Shown here: in pieces, positions 2,769 to 10,128 of the stretch
Layout of the letters: each line of letters opens with the position of its first letter
Position numbering within the stretch: the stretch's first letter is position 1
IMG/VR virus record: IMGVR_UViG_3300046009_004784
Coordinates: 1-23,826 of that record
Source of the DNA: a virus
Length of the DNA: 23,826 nucleotides
Direction: 5' to 3' (one strand)
The notes under the pieces: generated by a model
Database searches by the model: none
What the model was told of the DNA's origin: nothing
The model's input: the letters and a program-made list of their open reading frames with translations, nothing else
Made by a program: the position numbers and the translations under genes

Positions 2769-2851
2769 ACATGACACGCCAAATGTTTAGAAGTCAATTT
2801 GCACAATGGTTATTATTCTGGAGGTGCGTATGCAAGCGATTCAATATTTAG
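2765..2851 (+). CDS. 28-codon micro-ORF, possibly a translational coupler
   Basis: ATG at 2765 overlaps the nuclease stop (ATGA) and has CTGGAGGTGC at 2751-2760, with GGAG eight bases upstream. The peptide MNMTRQMFRSQFAQWLLFWRC... is basic and hydrophobic and ends at TAG 2849-2851, past the next gene's start at 2830. The same CTGGAGGTGC occurs again at 2818-2827 before that next start, so the ribosome-binding site is duplicated. It may be a true micropeptide or only a bridge that carries ribosomes to the 2830 gene. Confidence 0.4.
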   Translation: MNMTRQMFRSQFAQWLLFWRCVCKRFNI

Positions 2852-3225
2852 AACTTCCAAGTTCATTCGATCCTAACGTTCCTATGAGTGTTCAACTTAG
2901 AAAAGAACGACTCAAACTGTTCCCTATCAAAAAAGTAGTTGAACCAGTAACGTGTAAACATCCTATCATAGCTGAAGCTTGCAAAAAGCTGAATATAACT
3001 TTTGATGAACTTGCTTTGATTAAAGCTTCTCGACATACTGGATGCAATCTTAATCTTTTTGCAATTGTATATTATTTTAGATCTCGAAATATTTGCAAAC
3101 TTTCATATTTGCAAAAGTATATATTTACACAAAGAGATATCTACAATTACAAAAGACATATACCGCAATTTATAGACAAAAAAAAATATATAGATTTATT
3201 TAATTATCTGGATGCAATGAAATGA
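2830..3225 (+). CDS. possible diverged DnaA domain IV-like protein (131 aa)
   Basis: A 131-residue protein. Residues 22-33 (QLRKERLKLFPI) resemble 'QIREERMKLFGI' at the start of the next gene. The C-terminal half (~50-125) is helical and shows the spacing of a DnaA domain IV: a first helix pair (ACKKLNITFDELALIKASRH), a long helix (NLFAIVYYFRSRNICKL), then 'YLQKYIFTQRDIYNYKRHI'. Here the usual DnaA signature around 'DHSTV' is replaced by 'TQRDIYNYK'. I therefore read it as a degenerate relative of its neighbour, which is inference and not a clear family match. GGAG at 2820-2823 supports 2830 over the in-frame ATG at 2806. It overlaps the next gene by 4 bases. Confidence 0.55.
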   Translation: MQAIQYLELPSSFDPNVPMSVQLRKERLKLFPIKKVVEPVTCKHPIIAEACKKLNITFDELALIKASRHTGCNLNLFAIVYYFRSRNICKLSYLQKYIFTQRDIYNYKRHIPQFIDKKKYIDLFNYLDAMK

Positions 3226-3662
3226 CACTAAGCGAGCAAATAAGAGAAGAACGAATGAAACTATTTGGAATTACCTATAAGCCAAAGCAAGACCGTGTAA
3301 TAGGTGAAACTCCTGACATCATGAAAAAATACATTAAAGCAAAGAAACAATTTGACAAAGATCCAGACTTTGCAATAAATAAAATTACTAATTGGCTAGC
3401 TCAAGAAAAAAAAGTGCTTGTTGAAGATATCTACTCGAATAAACGATATAGAAACTTAGCAGATGCAAGACATATCTTATTCTTTTTACTATATTTTACT
3501 TTGCCAGTTACACAATCATTCATAGGATTAAAATTCAATAAACATCCGTCAAGTGTAGTTCATTCAATCTTAAAAGTGAAGGACGTTTTTATCAATTCAC
3601 TTGATTTTCAAGCGTTTATTCAAGAATTTGAAAGTTTTTACTTTGATAGGGTGGCAAAATGA
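3222..3662 (+). CDS. stand-alone DnaA domain IV-like DNA-binding protein (146 aa)
   Basis: Residues ~51-130 align well by eye with the C-terminal DNA-binding domain of DnaA. 'VEDIYSNKRYRNLADARHILFFLL' (67-90) matches the 'V..L.S.RR.R....ARQ.AM.L' helix region. 'TQSFIGLKFNKHPSSVVHSILKVK' (97-120) matches the '..EIG..FGGRDHTTV.HA..KI' signature, with HPSSVVH at 108-114 in place of DHTTVLH. The AAA+ domain and the rest of DnaA are missing; the first ~50 residues are a short charged helix and linker. It should bind specific duplex DNA without hydrolysing ATP. Position directly before the primase-helicase and near an iteron block suggests a role in origin recognition or control of host DnaA. Overlaps both neighbours by 4 bases. 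Confidence 0.8.
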   Translation: MTLSEQIREERMKLFGITYKPKQDRVIGETPDIMKKYIKAKKQFDKDPDFAINKITNWLAQEKKVLVEDIYSNKRYRNLADARHILFFLLYFTLPVTQSFIGLKFNKHPSSVVHSILKVKDVFINSLDFQAFIQEFESFYFDRVAK

Positions 3663-5845
3663 ACATTTCAGTATTCAAAGCAGCTCTGGATACGAATCCA
3701 GAAGTAAATATCTCTTTCTACACCTTTCTAGGCTATGTGAAAGACGGCCGCTGGCAAGATGAAGTGCTGGCCGTTCGCCTTGGTAAAAAGGACAAGAAAA
3801 CAATGCCAGCCGTGACGCCATCTGGAACGTTTTCGAAAAGGCGGGCGGACTCTTTACAGCAGCATAGCAATATCCTTTGTGTAGATATCGACTTCAAAGA
3901 TAATGAAGACGCCGATATAGAAGCGCTTAAGAATGATCCATATACGTGGGCGGTTCACCGTTCTGTTGGTGGTCTTGGTTGGGTGGCATATTTCAAGATA
4001 GACGGCTCAAAACATCTTGAAGCATATCTCGGGCTTGAAAAATATCTTGCTGATTATTACAAAGTAATTGCAGATAAGTCTTGCAAAGATGTTTCACGAT
4101 TGAGAATAGTTTCATGGGATCCAGATTTATATCAAAAAGACCATGAACCAAAGCAATTTAAGCTGTACATTAAAGATAAAACACAAGAAATCGAACGCAA
4201 GCCAGTAATTGCTACAAATGAAGACTATAAACATATCATAAAACAGATTCAAGACAAGAAAATCGATCTTACTAACAATAGCCACCATGATTGGATTCAG
4301 ATTGGTTATTCTTTGGCAAATGGACTAGGAGAGCAAGGGCGCGAACTTTATCACGCTGTAAGCTCTATAAGCCCTAAATATGACGAATTGCAAACAGATG
4401 CGAAGTACAATTTGCTTATTAAGAACAAAAACGGCTCTGTAAGTCTTAATACGTTCTTTTATCTATGCTCACAAGCTGGAATTGAAACACAAACAGATAC
4501 AACACGCAAAATTATCAATCTTACACAACTTGCAAAGTCACGAGATAGCCAAAACGCAGAGCAAGCCAAGGCTTCAACTCTGAAACTACTTGAACAACAA
4601 GGGATTAAAGGCCCTGAAATCGTTGCAACTGTTGACAAAGCCTTTGATCTCGATATAAAGACAAAAAAAGCACAAAAAAGCTCTGGAGAAATAGAATCTA
4701 TTAAGTTAATGCTGAAAAGTTATGATCTAAGGTTCAATCTTGTTACGCAAAACATGGAAATCGACGGCCGTAACTTTACAGACCGTGAATTCAATAACAT
4801 TTTTATTCAGTTACGTGAGCAATTAGGTAACACCGTTCAATCGCAAATAGTTAATAGCATAATTGATAGCGATAATACGCAAAGCTTCAATCCTTTTACT
4901 GAATATTTGAAAGAATGCCGTGACATCAAAACAAGCGGCCATATTACAAGGCTATGCGAAGCGATTCAGTACAAAGAAAGCAAGTATATGACGCCCGCAA
5001 CGCTTGAAAACTATGTCAAAAAATGGCTTCTTGGAATCATTGCTTCAATGCACGGTACTCACTCTGTTACTATTTTAGTTCTTTGCGGCGGGCAAGGCAT
5101 AGGGAAAACGAATTTCTTTAGAAAGTTACTCCCTGAAAAGCTACGCAGCTACTATGCTGAATCTAAACTTGATCTTGGCAAAGATGATCTGATCTTGATG
5201 TGTAATAAGCTGATAATATGCGACGATGAGTTTGGTGGCAAGTCCAAAAAAGAAGAAAAACTACTCAAAGAGCTAAGTTCAAAGCAAATCTTTTCAGTTA
5301 GACCACCATATCAAAAAAGAAATATTGATATGCAACGCTATGCAGTTCTTTGCGGTACTTCTAATGATTCTCAACTACTTAACGACTTGACAGGCAATAG
5401 AAGGATCATTCCGATTGATATTACTGGAATTGATTGGGATTTGTATAATTCAATCGATAAAGACCTACTTTTTGCGGAGCTTTATAATGAATATATATCA
5501 TGTGGCAAAGAATGGCAGTTGAATTCTTTGGATATTTCCATCTTAAATGAACTCACATACGCAAATCGTTCCATTTGTATTGAAGAAGAATTACTGATTC
5601 AATATTTCAAAGAACCAGAAGCAAAATACTCCGAATGGCTAACAAATACCCAAATTTTGAACATTATTAGCCAAGATACTAACCAAAGACTAACATCTCA
5701 CAAATTAGGCCAAGTCCTTAAAAATTATGGATATAGAAAGGAATACAAATCCATAAATGGGAAAACTTCTGGCGTATGGTGGGTATGCAAACGCAATGAT
5801 CTTGAACCAACGTTTACTATTACAGATATTACAGATATTATGTAA
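3659..5845 (+). CDS. primase-helicase replication protein (BT4734-like PrimPol + PriCT_2 + VirE helicase)
   Basis: A 728-residue fusion. Residues 1-~165 resemble the BT4734/BF3469 N-terminal domain, a primase-polymerase-like fold: D76-I-D78 in 'CVDIDF', 'RSVGGLGWVAYF' at 101-112 and 'SRLRIVSWDPD' at 146-156 would be the metal and nucleotide-binding motifs. A PriCT_2-like helical domain follows at ~190-275 (HHDWIQIGYSLANGLGE). Residues ~400-640 are a VirE-type SF3-like helicase: Walker A GGQGIGKT (~477-484), Walker B LIICDDEF (~518-525), sensor GTSND and 'LTGNRRIIPI' at ~565-585. A small C-terminal wing domain (HKLGQVLKNYGY) may bind DNA. It is the likely replication initiator/primase, common in Bacteroidota phages. 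Its last codons (TITDITDIM) are formed by a tandem DNA repeat, TATTACAGA at 5818 and 5827. Confidence 0.88.
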   Translation: MNISVFKAALDTNPEVNISFYTFLGYVKDGRWQDEVLAVRLGKKDKKTMPAVTPSGTFSKRRADSLQQHSNILCVDIDFKDNEDADIEALKNDPYTWAVHRSVGGLGWVAYFKIDGSKHLEAYLGLEKYLADYYKVIADKSCKDVSRLRIVSWDPDLYQKDHEPKQFKLYIKDKTQEIERKPVIATNEDYKHIIKQIQDKKIDLTNNSHHDWIQIGYSLANGLGEQGRELYHAVSSISPKYDELQTDAKYNLLIKNKNGSVSLNTFFYLCSQAGIETQTDTTRKIINLTQLAKSRDSQNAEQAKASTLKLLEQQGIKGPEIVATVDKAFDLDIKTKKAQKSSGEIESIKLMLKSYDLRFNLVTQNMEIDGRNFTDREFNNIFIQLREQLGNTVQSQIVNSIIDSDNTQSFNPFTEYLKECRDIKTSGHITRLCEAIQYKESKYMTPATLENYVKKWLLGIIASMHGTHSVTILVLCGGQGIGKTNFFRKLLPEKLRSYYAESKLDLGKDDLILMCNKLIICDDEFGGKSKKEEKLLKELSSKQIFSVRPPYQKRNIDMQRYAVLCGTSNDSQLLNDLTGNRRIIPIDITGIDWDLYNSIDKDLLFAELYNEYISCGKEWQLNSLDISILNELTYANRSICIEEELLIQYFKEPEAKYSEWLTNTQILNIISQDTNQRLTSHKLGQVLKNYGYRKEYKSINGKTSGVWWVCKRNDLEPTFTITDITDIM

Positions 5846-5872
5846 TTTTTTGTAGTTCTATATATATATAAA

Positions 5873-5907
5873 ATGCGTGTGTGTATGTGTGTATGTATGT
5901 ATATATA
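5873..5907. repeat. alternating purine-pyrimidine tract (GT/AT microsatellite)
   Basis: Thirty-five bases alternate purine and pyrimidine without a break, made of TG/CG steps, then GTGTATGTGTGTATGTATGT and a TA run. Such tracts can adopt Z-DNA or unwind easily under negative supercoiling. A 61-codon reading frame runs through it (5877-6062) but is low in complexity and not treated as a gene. Confidence 0.75.
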
Positions 5908-5923
5908 AATATATGTTTAATAC

Positions 5924-5950
5924 CTATAATATCTATAATATCTATAATAG
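5924..5950 (+). repeat. three tandem 9-bp iterons, left cluster
   Basis: CTATAATAT (5924-5932), CTATAATAT (5933-5941) and CTATAATAG (5942-5950) follow each other without a gap. The same 8-base core returns three times at 6007-6034. Their even spacing on one face suggests a binding array for an initiator protein. Confidence 0.85.
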
Positions 5951-5990
5951 TTTGCGCAACTTATTGAAAATTAAGAACTTAACCTATTAC

Positions 5991-6008
5991 AGACTTTTGA
6001 AAAAGTCT
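5991..6008. repeat. perfect inverted repeat between the iteron clusters
   Basis: AGACTTTT (5991-5998), spacer GA, AAAAGTCT (6001-6008). After one mismatched pair, symmetry continues for three further pairs (5987-5989 with 6010-6012). It is not followed by a T-run and sits before a start codon, so it is not a good terminator; a binding site or cruciform is likelier. Confidence 0.8.
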
Positions 6009-6034
6009 ATAATAAACTATAATATCTATAATAA
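6007..6034 (+). repeat. three 9-bp iterons, right cluster
   Basis: CTATAATAA (6007-6015), CTATAATAT (6017-6025) and CTATAATAA (6026-6034). The first overlaps the right arm of the inverted repeat, and the last ends on the A of the helicase ATG. Protein bound here would cover the translation/transcription entry of the helicase gene, so the repeats could also regulate it. Confidence 0.85.
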
Positions 6035-7446
6035 TGACACAACTAAGACAATATCAACTTGATGCAATTCAAAAACTCCGCAATGCAATTACAAGCGGAC
6101 ACAAAAGAATTATTCTTTGCGCTCCAACGGGAGCGGGCAAAACGGTAATCTTTTCAGAGATGTGCAGGAGCGCAATCGAAAAGGGCAAGACAGTGATGAT
6201 CATTACAGACCGTGTGGAACTGCTTACACAATCTGGAGGCGCATTAAACCGCCTCAAAATATTACCAGAGTACATTCAAGCCTTTACAACGCACTTGAAT
6301 AGGTATTCAATTTATGTTGCAATGGTGGAGACAATCTACAGACGCTTAAGCCAGCCCGAATACTTAGAGCTATTCAAAAGACTTGATCTAATAATATTCG
6401 ATGAAGCTCACAAGCAAACCTTTTCAAAGTTAATGCCGTTCGTTAGTGATAATGCAATCGTAATTGGCGCAACGGCTACACCATATCGCCAAGGTAATCA
6501 AGAAAGTTTAGACAAGCACTACACCGAAATTGTAAACGTGATCGACGTTCAAAACTTGATCGAACAAGGCTATTTAGCAAAGCCGACTTATTACGGTGTC
6601 GAAGTAAATTTACAAGGCATAAAGACGCGCGGGGGTGACTACGACACGGCCAGCCTTGGAGCAATGTACAGTAATTCGCAAATATACAAGGGTGTTTTAA
6701 GCAATTACAAGCGCCTTGCAAAGAATAAAAAGACTTTAATATTCAGTTCTAATATTGAAAGTTCAAAAGAGCTATGTGCGGAATTCACATCGCATGGAAT
6801 CCCTATAATGCACGTGGACGCCTCTACAAGCCCCGCAGAGCGACGAAACGCACTCGAGTGGTATAAAGTGACGCCTAACGCTGTTTTGTCAAATGTAGGG
6901 CTTTTTACAACGGGTTTTGATGAACCTTCTACAGAATGCGTAATACTATACCGAGCTACAAAGAGCTTGCCTTTATATTTGCAGATGTGTGGTCGTGGAT
7001 CAAGAACGGCTCCTGGTAAGGATAGTTTTATGATTCTTGATTTTGGTAATAACGTTTTGACACATGGTTTTTGGGATGATCCACGTGAGTGGAGTTTACA
7101 AAAGAAAGAAAAGAAGAAATCAAGTGGCGTTGCGCCCGTGAAGTTGTGTAAAGATTGCGGAGCTTTGATTCCTAGCGTTGCGAGAGCGTGTGTGTATTGT
7201 GGTTGTGTGATACCAAAAACAGAACGTGAAGTGATTGCAGAGCTTCAAGAACTTACAAAAAGTCATGCGATGAACATGGCACGATATGGCAATATTGAAA
7301 CCTGGGTAATGCTTGCTAAAGCAAAAAAAATAAATTCTATTTGGATTGTTAAAACTTTATGTCGTAACTTGCATGAAGCGAAACAATTTACGCAAATGAT
7401 GGGCTATGCCAACGGCTGGCTCTGGATGCACTGGAGAAAGAAGTGA
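6034..7446 (+). CDS. SF2 DEAH-box helicase with C-terminal zinc ribbon
   Basis: A 470-residue superfamily 2 helicase of the type I restriction HsdR/XPB-like (ResIII) branch. Q-like 'LRQYQLDAI' is at 4-12, Walker A APTGAGKT at 30-37, DEAH at 123-126, GATATP at 145-150, and motif VI QMCGRGSR at ~316-323. Near residues 370-393 'CKDCG...CVYCGC' forms two CxxC knuckles of a zinc ribbon. It should use ATP to move on or unwind duplex or branched DNA. Phage enzymes of this type act in replication fork remodelling or initiation. There is no Shine-Dalgarno; the start codon abuts the last iteron. It overlaps the next gene by 4 bases. Confidence 0.88.
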   Translation: MTQLRQYQLDAIQKLRNAITSGHKRIILCAPTGAGKTVIFSEMCRSAIEKGKTVMIITDRVELLTQSGGALNRLKILPEYIQAFTTHLNRYSIYVAMVETIYRRLSQPEYLELFKRLDLIIFDEAHKQTFSKLMPFVSDNAIVIGATATPYRQGNQESLDKHYTEIVNVIDVQNLIEQGYLAKPTYYGVEVNLQGIKTRGGDYDTASLGAMYSNSQIYKGVLSNYKRLAKNKKTLIFSSNIESSKELCAEFTSHGIPIMHVDASTSPAERRNALEWYKVTPNAVLSNVGLFTTGFDEPSTECVILYRATKSLPLYLQMCGRGSRTAPGKDSFMILDFGNNVLTHGFWDDPREWSLQKKEKKKSSGVAPVKLCKDCGALIPSVARACVYCGCVIPKTEREVIAELQELTKSHAMNMARYGNIETWVMLAKAKKINSIWIVKTLCRNLHEAKQFTQMMGYANGWLWMHWRKK

Positions 7447-8416: not shown

Positions 8417-8965
8417 ATGAGTATATACAACAAACAATTTTATGCTTCACAAAGCCCTGGTTCTTATAACTCTGCTTTGGTTGTAGTTCCACATATAATC
8501 GAGCTTTACAAGCCAAAAAAAGTTGCGGATGTAGGTGGTGGGGTTGGTACATGGTGCAAAGTATTTGATGATCTTGGAATTGATGCAACTTGCTTTGATG
8601 GTGATTATGCAACTCCAATTTGCAAAAACTTTATTTCGATTGATCTTGAGGAACCTTTGAAAATCAAAGGGCGTTTTGATGCTGTTTTATGTTTAGAAGT
8701 TGCTGAACATTTGCCAGAATCAAGAGCGGAATATTTTGTTAAAGATTTGTGTTCTATATCAAATATAGTTATATTTAGCGCAGCTATTGTTGGACAAGGT
8801 GGCACAAATCACATAAATGAACAGCCACATGAATATTGGCATAAATTATTCAAATTGAATGGTTATAAGATTAATACAGATTTAAGAGATATAGTACAAA
8901 CTTTACAAGGTGTAGAGTGGTGGTATTCTCAAAACATATTTACATATGAAAAGGCTAGAGTATGA
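8417..8965 (+). CDS. class I SAM-dependent methyltransferase
   Basis: A 182-residue Rossmann-type methyltransferase. Motif I is 'VADVGGGVGTW' (36-46), which binds SAM. 'CFDGD' (59-63) supplies the acidic residue for the ribose, and 'FDAVLCLEVAEHL' (87-99) is the methyltransferase-23 style motif IV/post-I region. 'INEQPHEYWHKLF' follows at ~133-147. It has none of the DPPY/NPPY (N6A/N4C) or PCQ (5mC) motifs of DNA methylases, so a small-molecule, sugar or lipid substrate is more likely. A glycosyltransferase lies three genes downstream, making sugar methylation a reasonable guess. AGGA lies just upstream; it overlaps the next gene by 4 bases. Confidence 0.85.
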   Translation: MSIYNKQFYASQSPGSYNSALVVVPHIIELYKPKKVADVGGGVGTWCKVFDDLGIDATCFDGDYATPICKNFISIDLEEPLKIKGRFDAVLCLEVAEHLPESRAEYFVKDLCSISNIVIFSAAIVGQGGTNHINEQPHEYWHKLFKLNGYKINTDLRDIVQTLQGVEWWYSQNIFTYEKARV

Positions 8966-9279
8966 GCAAGATTGATTTAAGTGGATTCATTGAACACGTT
9001 GGAGCAGTTCAACAAATTAGCGATAAGTTTTCAAAACGTGATTTTGTTTTACGTATTGATTCTGGAAAGTACACAGAGTTCATAAGATGTGAAGCAACGA
9101 ACAACGCTTGTGAGATGCTGAACGGATTCAAGCAAGATGACGAGGTCAAAATCAGCGTGTACTTAACAGGCCGTAAGTACAATAAGCCGACTGGTGAAGT
9201 TGCTTACTTTACAAGTGTGAAGTTAAGTGCTATAAACAAAGTGGAACCTATCAGCCATGCCGAAAATATACCATTTTAA
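8962..9279 (+). CDS. DUF3127-like single-stranded DNA-binding protein
   Basis: A 105-residue predicted OB-fold. 'GFIEHVGAVQQISDKFSKRDFVLRI' (8-32) gives strands 1-2, 'YTEFIRCEATNNACEMLNGFKQDDEVKI' the middle, and 'VYLTGRKYNKPTGEVAYFTSVKLSAI' (~71-96) the last strands. This order is that of DUF3127 proteins in Bacteroidota and their phages, proposed to act as SSBs. The C-terminus ends in 'AENIPF', like the acidic-then-Phe tails by which SSBs recruit partners, though less acidic. It probably coats single-stranded DNA for the primase-helicase and the Sak4-like protein. It overlaps neighbours on both sides. Confidence 0.75.
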   Translation: MSKIDLSGFIEHVGAVQQISDKFSKRDFVLRIDSGKYTEFIRCEATNNACEMLNGFKQDDEVKISVYLTGRKYNKPTGEVAYFTSVKLSAINKVEPISHAENIPF

Positions 9280-9511
9280 CGAGTCGCCTTTCTTTGATTG
9301 GCGAAGTTACAAAGACGGTTGCAAAGCTAGTATTTTTTATAATGGCGTGCAATCGTTTTGCGTTTTATTACCTTATGACAATGGTTGGAAGTTCACTATC
9401 TACGATATGCAAGGCAAAGGCTTAATTAAGTACAGATTCAGAAATTGCACTTTGCAAGAAGCACAAGGCAAAGCGGAATTTTACGCAATGAGTGAGGACG
9501 AATGCAATTAG
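9257..9511 (+). CDS. hypothetical protein (84 aa)
   Basis: An 84-residue protein starting inside the SSB-like gene (23-base overlap) and overlapping the glycosyltransferase gene by 10 bases. It is rich in aromatic residues (FFDWRSYKDG, NGWKFTIYDMQGKGLIKYRF) and probably beta-rich with a C-terminal helix. No signal peptide or membrane segment. No family recognised. The tight overlaps on both sides and good codon flow suggest that it is real and translationally coupled. Confidence 0.65.
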   Translation: MPKIYHFNESPFFDWRSYKDGCKASIFYNGVQSFCVLLPYDNGWKFTIYDMQGKGLIKYRFRNCTLQEAQGKAEFYAMSEDECN

Positions 9512-10128
9512 CAATCATAGTGCCTTTTAGAGATAGGCACGAGCACGCAAAAGAGTTTATTCCGTACATGAGTACCTACTTGACTATGCAAGGTCACGAC
9601 TTTCATATCTTGATAGTTGAACAAGAACCTGGTTTGCCGTTCAATCGTGGCAAACTTTGTAATATAGGCTATAATTCAATTGAAGCGGATTATTACGTAT
9701 TCCATGATATTGATATGCTACCTATCACAGCGGATTATTCGCCATGCTTAAGCCCGACTCACTTAGTTGCAAGCGCAACGCAATTCGAGGACGGTATTCC
9801 ATATGAAACCTATTTCGGTGGCGTTACGATGTTCCCAAATGCTGACTTCATGAGAGTAAACGGATTTTCTAATGAGTTCTGGGGATGGGGTTCTGAAGAT
9901 GATGACTTGATAAAAAGATGTGCAAATGAAAAACTAGTGATCACAAGACGTGAGGGCGGTACATTCAAAAGTCTTGATCATGCAATAAATATAGATTCAA
10001 CACTTGCAAAGGCTAACTGGGAACGCTATGCAAAAGGCACAAGCGACGGTTTAACAACATTAAAATTCACTCCTTTATATAAAAAGATCTTGACTTCTAA
10101 AGTCTCAATTTTACACGTATCAATTTAA
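9502..10128 (+). CDS. GT7-like glycosyltransferase (beta-1,4-galactosyltransferase fold)
   Basis: A 208-residue cytosolic glycosyltransferase with all the hallmark motifs of the animal beta-4-galactosyltransferase family (GT7) in the right order. VPFRDR is at 7-12, FNRGKL at 47-52, the metal-binding D69-I-D71 in 'HDIDM', 'YFGGV' at 104-108, and WGWGSEDDD at 127-135. His160 in 'LDHAI' takes the place of the final metal-ligand His. There is no transmembrane stem or signal peptide, unlike the Golgi enzymes. It would transfer a sugar (Gal, GalNAc or similar) from a UDP donor; the acceptor is unknown and could be phage protein, DNA, or host glycan. Last gene before the lysis region; start set by GAGG five bases upstream. 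Confidence 0.88.
   Translation: MQLAIIVPFRDRHEHAKEFIPYMSTYLTMQGHDFHILIVEQEPGLPFNRGKLCNIGYNSIEADYYVFHDIDMLPITADYSPCLSPTHLVASATQFEDGIPYETYFGGVTMFPNADFMRVNGFSNEFWGWGSEDDDLIKRCANEKLVITRREGGTFKSLDHAINIDSTLAKANWERYAKGTSDGLTTLKFTPLYKKILTSKVSILHVSI

Follow-up and report, generated by a model that had tools for sequence, protein, structure and literature searches.

A shared N-terminal peptide marks small, putatively DNA-binding proteins encoded before a phage VapE-type primase-helicase

Introduction

Why would a phage place two small genes, one of them encoding what looks like the DNA-binding domain of DnaA without its ATPase, directly before the gene for its primase-helicase? The locus that raises this question comes from an IMG/VR virus record, of which we analyzed a stretch of 23,826 bases (hereafter the window, to which all positions refer unless a relative is named). 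Two near-identical Bacteroidota-type promoter-like stretches, seen by eye at 65-101 and 350-385 (TTTTGCAAATGGTTAAATAAT...TATATTTGTA / TATATTTTTGA), point to Bacteroidota-type bacteria as the host of this phage.

On the plus strand, the window encodes a Sak4-like single-strand annealing ATPase (770-1666) and a Cas4-like or PD-(D/E)XK-type nuclease (2169-2768; PHROG 34697, and weakly 1706), followed by the two small proteins that we call P1 (2830-3225; 131 aa) and P2 (3222-3662; 146 aa) and by a VapE-type primase-helicase (3659-5845) with a BT4734-like N-terminal domain, PriCT_2 and a VapE AAA+ domain. An origin-like region comes next on this strand (about 5818-6033), a ResIII-type helicase gene begins directly after it (6034-7446), and 8962-9279 encodes a DUF3127 protein, whose counterparts in related phages carry the annotation SSB. 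The window also holds a phage-encoded glycosyltransferase family 7-type (galactosyltransferase-like) protein at 9502-10128.

Standalone DnaA domain IV (DnaA-IV) proteins are already known as annotations in phages and are common in phages of the Bacteroidota, with no role assigned as far as we found; for Polaribacter phages, a protein named "replication initiation protein DnaA" has been reported (PMC4615864). Here we ask what P1 and P2 have in common, which other genes accompany them in related phages, and whether they or the primase-helicase would read the repeats of the origin-like region.

Results

P2 matches DnaA domain IV and has no AAA+ domain

The two reading frames proposed by the initial annotation of the window (2830-3225 and 3222-3662) are both open, and its description of the second as a full DnaA DNA-binding domain without an AAA+ domain, encoded directly before the primase-helicase, held up. 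P2 matched PF08299 (Bac_DnaA_C) above the cut-off (E 4.4e-9; 36.7 bits against 31.5) and over the entire profile (1-69 of 69), which places the domain at 3375-3578 on the plus strand. It also matched the DnaA C-terminus in NCBIfam and in PDB sequences, while its match to TIGR00362 was confined to 329-432 of 437 and lay far under the cut-off; at 146 aa, the protein amounts to domain IV only. In a profile-profile comparison, the P2 core scored against the DnaA-IV profile with E 1e-12, a value reached by 0 of 40 shuffles. By these matches, P2 consists of a DnaA domain IV and lacks the ATPase. Zero matches to P2 were found in PHROGs or PADLOC or in a scan of genome contigs, and tblastn against phages and plasmids returned no close isolate relatives.

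We aligned P2 with the DnaA proteins of E. coli, M. tuberculosis, Aquifex, Bacillus, Thermotoga and Bacteroidetes, and in this alignment HPSSVVH (3543-3563, plus strand) stands for DHTTVLH, as had been read from the sequence before. The DHTTVLH segment makes the major-groove contact in E. coli DnaA domain IV. In the recognition segment of P2, the D, the H and both T are replaced and the final H is kept; the arginines of the basic loop and helix are retained (SNKRYRNLADARH), and R75, R77 and R83 sit at conserved arginine positions, with the DHTTVLH-type signature absent. Since HPSSVVH replaces DHTTVLH, P2 is unlikely to target an ordinary DnaA box.

P1 had likewise been credited with a helix order similar to that of DnaA domain IV, which we could not confirm: no Pfam, PHROG, NCBIfam or PADLOC match was found for it, and the profile signal was weak. 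The P1 core scored 19.1 against the DnaA-IV profile (shuffles 11.3 +/- 2.1, with 0 of 200 reaching the score; E 0.015, probability 3%), an enlarged DnaA-IV profile gave no signal with this core, and a profile-profile comparison of P1 with P2 aligned only their shared N-terminal motif. The helical core that follows this motif in P1 may be a DnaA-IV-like domain that has diverged. Both proteins gave poor AlphaFold models (pLDDT 48-53), as too few relatives were available as input; fold searches with them gave no meaningful match, and the P2 model did not retrieve DnaA.

P1 and P2 share an N-terminal peptide

When P1 and P2 were compared by BLASTP and by profiles, essentially one stretch was aligned, namely MSVQLRKERLKLF of P1 (residues 19-31; 2884-2922) with LSEQIREERMKLF of P2 (residues 3-15; 3228-3266), both on the plus strand. 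This docking-like peptide has about 13 residues and the form [LM]S-x-Q-[LI]-[RK]-x-E-R-x-x-L-F. The N-terminal motif that had been noted earlier, R.ER.KLF.I, is therefore real and far above chance, but it stops short of [LM]S.Q[LI], the part to the left, where conservation is higher. A relaxed 9-position regular expression, run on the open reading frames of relatives retrieved via the primase, matched 55 times, always on the coding strand and always in small genes preceding the primase. On the reverse strand of these relatives there were zero matches in 890,009 residues, and composition shuffles of all open reading frames gave about 0.2 matches per pass. The peptide shared by P1 and P2 is clearly not a product of chance.

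Searching with the peptide alone led to further contigs and to a third clade, and carriers now comprise 38 contigs in three clades, the window included. In these contigs, an array of two to four small genes lies between the Cas4-like nuclease and the VapE-type primase-helicase, and [LM]S-x-Q-[LI]-[RK]-x-E-R is found near the N-terminus of neighboring small pre-primase genes, not invariably at the extreme N-terminus. The peptide stands out from the rest of its carriers, with 13/16 conserved in P1 versus 55% elsewhere, 21/26 versus 50% in D2 and 17/23 versus 35% in the AT-hook protein (the latter two are proteins of related phages, described below). Identical residues are often encoded by different codons, so that conservation is at the level of protein and not of DNA; for the same reason, we rejected recent copying of the peptide between genes at the DNA level.

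In both the P1 and P2 models, the peptide is a predicted helix and is among the best-modelled parts. A beta-clamp motif (QLxLF), prompted by RLKLF/RMKLF, was considered and discarded, as LF is not retained in the clade-2 members. Among open-licence papers, we found no description of this peptide across folds.

The same peptide heads different modules in related phages

In clade 2 (e.g., L106 and L126), up to four consecutive peptide-bearing genes are followed by the primase, and they encode an AT-hook-like protein, a ribbon-helix-helix (RHH) protein and two DnaA-IV-like proteins, U2 and D2. The AT-hook-like protein has the stretch RRGPKPGSGGRPRK in clade 2, with KRGRPPK and MGRPKK as its counterparts in clade 3, and reached 14.5 bits with the AT_hook profile, below the cut-off of 17.4; the RHH protein matched RHH_1 above the cut-off, with 25.3 bits. 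D2 matched DnaA_C with E 3.5e-5, and the cores of D2 and U2 scored against the DnaA-IV profile with E 8.6e-8 and 1.6e-6, respectively, neither of which any shuffle reached. As judged from these profile matches and stretches, one peptide heads AT-hook-like, RHH and two DnaA-IV-like modules at the same place before the primase. The pairing of P1 with P2 in the initial annotation gains meaning here, since in a related clade both pre-primase genes are DnaA-IV-like. In L140, a clade-3 contig, a U2 relative (6315-6740) is without the shared peptide, so that the tag can be lost.

All array relatives are metagenomic, and queries with the clade-2 RHH protein, the peptide and U2 against isolates returned no relevant relative. 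The peptide is absent from Sak4/nuclease phages of other hosts (Aaphi23, BS-TP2, BS-TP3 and FP_Taranis), and a primase-alignment scan of genome contigs gave four distant loci, all of them without it. In Bacteroides phage BS-TP3 (PQ571276.1, 28054-30021; L162), the gene annotated as "terminase large subunit" overlaps a match to the Sak4-like ATPase, and this annotation may be wrong.

The peptide array co-occurs with Sak4, nuclease and DUF3127 genes

The Sak4-like ATPase and the Cas4-like nuclease were found upstream of the array in every peptide contig with enough upstream sequence, and the DUF3127 protein downstream of it wherever the sequence of peptide-bearing contigs covers this part. In peptide-less contigs with similarly distant primases, all three were absent from the covered stretch. 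Primase identity to the window is 43-47% in the other peptide-bearing clades and 44-47% in the peptide-less contigs, while Sak4 (62-67% identity) and the nuclease (46-50%) are common to the window and the peptide-bearing clades. Because Sak4 and the nuclease are shared and the primase is no closer, the recombination module is a candidate for the partner of the peptide; the co-occurrence with Sak4 may equally reflect common descent of the whole region. DUF3127 alone is a less likely partner, as phages with DUF3127 and no peptide exist. Most of the peptide-less phages with this primase whose sequence reaches far enough (contigs from L064 to L129) have one untagged DnaA-IV gene near VRR-NUC, 2-4 kb after the primase.

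The same predicted helix on proteins of one neighborhood would also fit an oligomerization helix, through which these proteins might assemble into mixed oligomers or into filaments along phage DNA with no separate partner, replacing domain I and the AAA+ domain of DnaA. That a standalone DnaA-IV protein has no oligomerization domain of its own speaks for this possibility, but the presence of the array follows other genes (those for Sak4, the nuclease and DUF3127), and the peptide is lost in the U2 relative of L140. We regard self-association as unlikely.

Iterons change with the primase while DnaA-IV-like proteins stay nearly the same

In the origin-like region of the window, ATTACAG repeats lie at the primase 3' end, an AT-rich (TA)n/(TG)n core extends over about 5857-5918, and iterons of the sequence TCTATAATA are found at 5932, 5941, 6006 and 6025. 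These four copies, where 0.24 would be expected in the window, are all in the origin-like region. In nearly all contigs examined, the gap between the primase and ResIII helicase genes measures 120-255 bp and contains repeated 7-10-mers (iterons), which usually lie to the left and right of a (TA)n/(TG)n core. About 90 loci have, in the corresponding gap, the same architecture as the window (5846-6033), with phage-specific iterons that often extend into the primase 3' end, and array-less phages have this architecture as well.

Iteron sequence varies between phages, and clade 2, from which the following argument is drawn and extended to the clade of the window by analogy, has three types (GACAAC, ACCAC and ACTAC). 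Within versus between these types, identity was 97.6% versus 97.0% for D2, 92.9% versus 92.0% for U2 and 92.7% versus 93.2% for the RHH protein, and the ResIII helicase showed little or no covariation. The primase, on the other hand, covaries with iteron type from about residue 351 on, most strongly at its end (95.0% versus 51.5%); when a divergent ACTAC subgroup was added, the contrast became weaker and protein-wide but was still strongest at the C-terminus. L082 and L127 differ in iteron type (GACAAC in one, ACCAC in the other), yet their D2 proteins are 100% and their U2 proteins 99.4% identical. Upstream of the primase start, the DNA of the two contigs is 95-99% identical; identity falls to 60-88% in the primase and origin and rises again to 85-96% for most of the helicase gene. 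Divergence is thus limited to the primase and the adjacent iteron origin, which are exchanged here as one cassette (L082, 8001-10429; L127, 8001-10407).

Since iterons differ while D2 and U2 remain near-unchanged, iteron reading by the DnaA-IV-like array is unlikely. The proposal that P1 and P2 act as a phage-specific pair for origin recognition, which would bind the iterons of 5846-6034 and load the primase-helicase, does agree with the gene order, in which P2 directly precedes the primase and the origin-like region comes right after it, and with the DnaA-IV-like nature of both upstream genes in clade 2. However, in clade 2 the iterons track the primase and not the DnaA-IV-like proteins, and the same origin architecture occurs in phages without the upstream array, which together make this proposal improbable. 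The covariation instead suggests that the primase most likely reads the iterons, and that its C-terminal part is the likely reader. As the origin adjoins the primase gene, this covariation may partly be linkage; linkage alone could yield a primase-origin association, but it cannot save the idea that DnaA-IV-like proteins which stay unchanged read the iterons. Beside the right iterons, an AACTTAA-like element was seen by eye with several iteron types (TTAAGAACTTAA in the window; 5971-5982, plus strand), and its candidacy as a site for the accessory proteins is only a suggestion.

Displacement of host DnaA, which the initial annotation had offered as a second possibility, or its regulation by P1 and P2 in a manner comparable to HdaB of Caulobacter, can point to the precedent of standalone DnaA-IV proteins that reportedly act on host initiation. 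It found no positive support in the window, where the base-contact residues of P2 are altered and DnaA boxes are not enriched (2 TTWTNCACA against 5 expected); moreover, the gene lies in the phage replication region and not among host-takeover genes, and AT-hook and RHH proteins carry the same peptide. We hold this reading to be very unlikely. Titration of host DnaA was rejected on the same count of boxes. Least credible is a tag that directs small DNA binders into the virion, as the capsid-targeting peptide at the N-terminus of T4 internal proteins does. A short N-terminal peptide on unrelated small, partly basic proteins would fit this reading, but the genes are flanked by those for recombination and replication, a long way from terminase (15756) and capsid (20268), and the peptide is sometimes away from the extreme N-terminus.

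Discussion

The origin swaps seen in nature are a strong argument against iteron reading by the tagged set and so narrow its role to an accessory one. On the basis of sequence comparison and analogy, we give a probability of about 50% to the reading that P1 and P2 are tagged accessory DNA binders of the replication/recombination region, that their peptide docks one partner, and that the primase reads the iterons. P1, a putative DNA binder, and P2 would then act as accessory proteins and not as iteron readers, and the VapE primase-helicase would read the iterons via its C-terminal part and initiate replication in the manner of SaPI Rep. The shared peptide would be an amphipathic helix by which DNA binders with different target sites all dock to one partner. 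Docking would gather this partner on the DNA of the phage, perhaps at the AT-rich elements that are conserved close to the origin. Our guess is that the partner belongs to the module of Sak4, the Cas4-like nuclease and DUF3127; alternatively, it may be the primase or a protein of the host replisome. A docking helix for one partner is the most economical reading of the tag, and self-association is its main rival.

Stated more generally, and with a confidence that falls slightly short of even, the arrangement may be one of "address and plug," in which one docking helix on AT-hook, RHH and DnaA-IV proteins gathers one partner at many genome sites while an exchangeable primase-origin cassette reads the iterons. 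The peptide forms MSVQLRKERLKLF and LSEQLREERMKLF offer a direct experimental handle for fishing the partner, and the swap of the primase-origin cassette is a natural experiment on the specificity of VapE-family initiators.

Comparison with known systems

Cellulophaga phage phi46:1 gp40, Flavobacterium phage mumin9-1 gp28 and Pelagibacter phage HTVC204P gp23 resemble P2 in having a PF08299-type domain without AAA+, and two of the three phages have a VapE-type primase, like the window; unlike P1 and P2, these proteins are without the shared N-terminal peptide. Their genes are present in single copy and at another place, which in related contigs is 2-4 kb 3' of the primase near VRR-NUC. HdaB of Caulobacter is said to be a small standalone DnaA-IV protein without an ATPase that acts on host initiation. 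It is encoded by a chromosomal gene and P2 by a phage gene, and their likeness is one of description only. The HdaB study (Frandi and Collier, NAR 2020) is cited in PMC8034640.

For the primase, PMC7581432 describes how the C-terminal domain of SaPI Rep reads an iteron origin downstream of the helicase gene. The self-loading helicases SaPI Rep and SCCmec Cch2 have a short-iteron origin directly downstream, as does the window primase (3659-5845), and the passages of PMC7581432 on this system report no peptide-tagged accessory array for them. The likeness to SaPI Rep concerns the window primase, through the downstream iterons and their covariation with it, and not P1 or P2. In PLE RepA, the origin and the DNA-binding region of the initiator are exchanged jointly, as one module (PMC8263062). 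Compared with the window, this initiator is of a different family and has no accessory array. The KilA-N and Bro-N phage regulators have one shared module joined to varied partner modules. Their shared module is a folded domain, whereas the one described here is a peptide of about 13 residues carried by neighboring genes of one genome.
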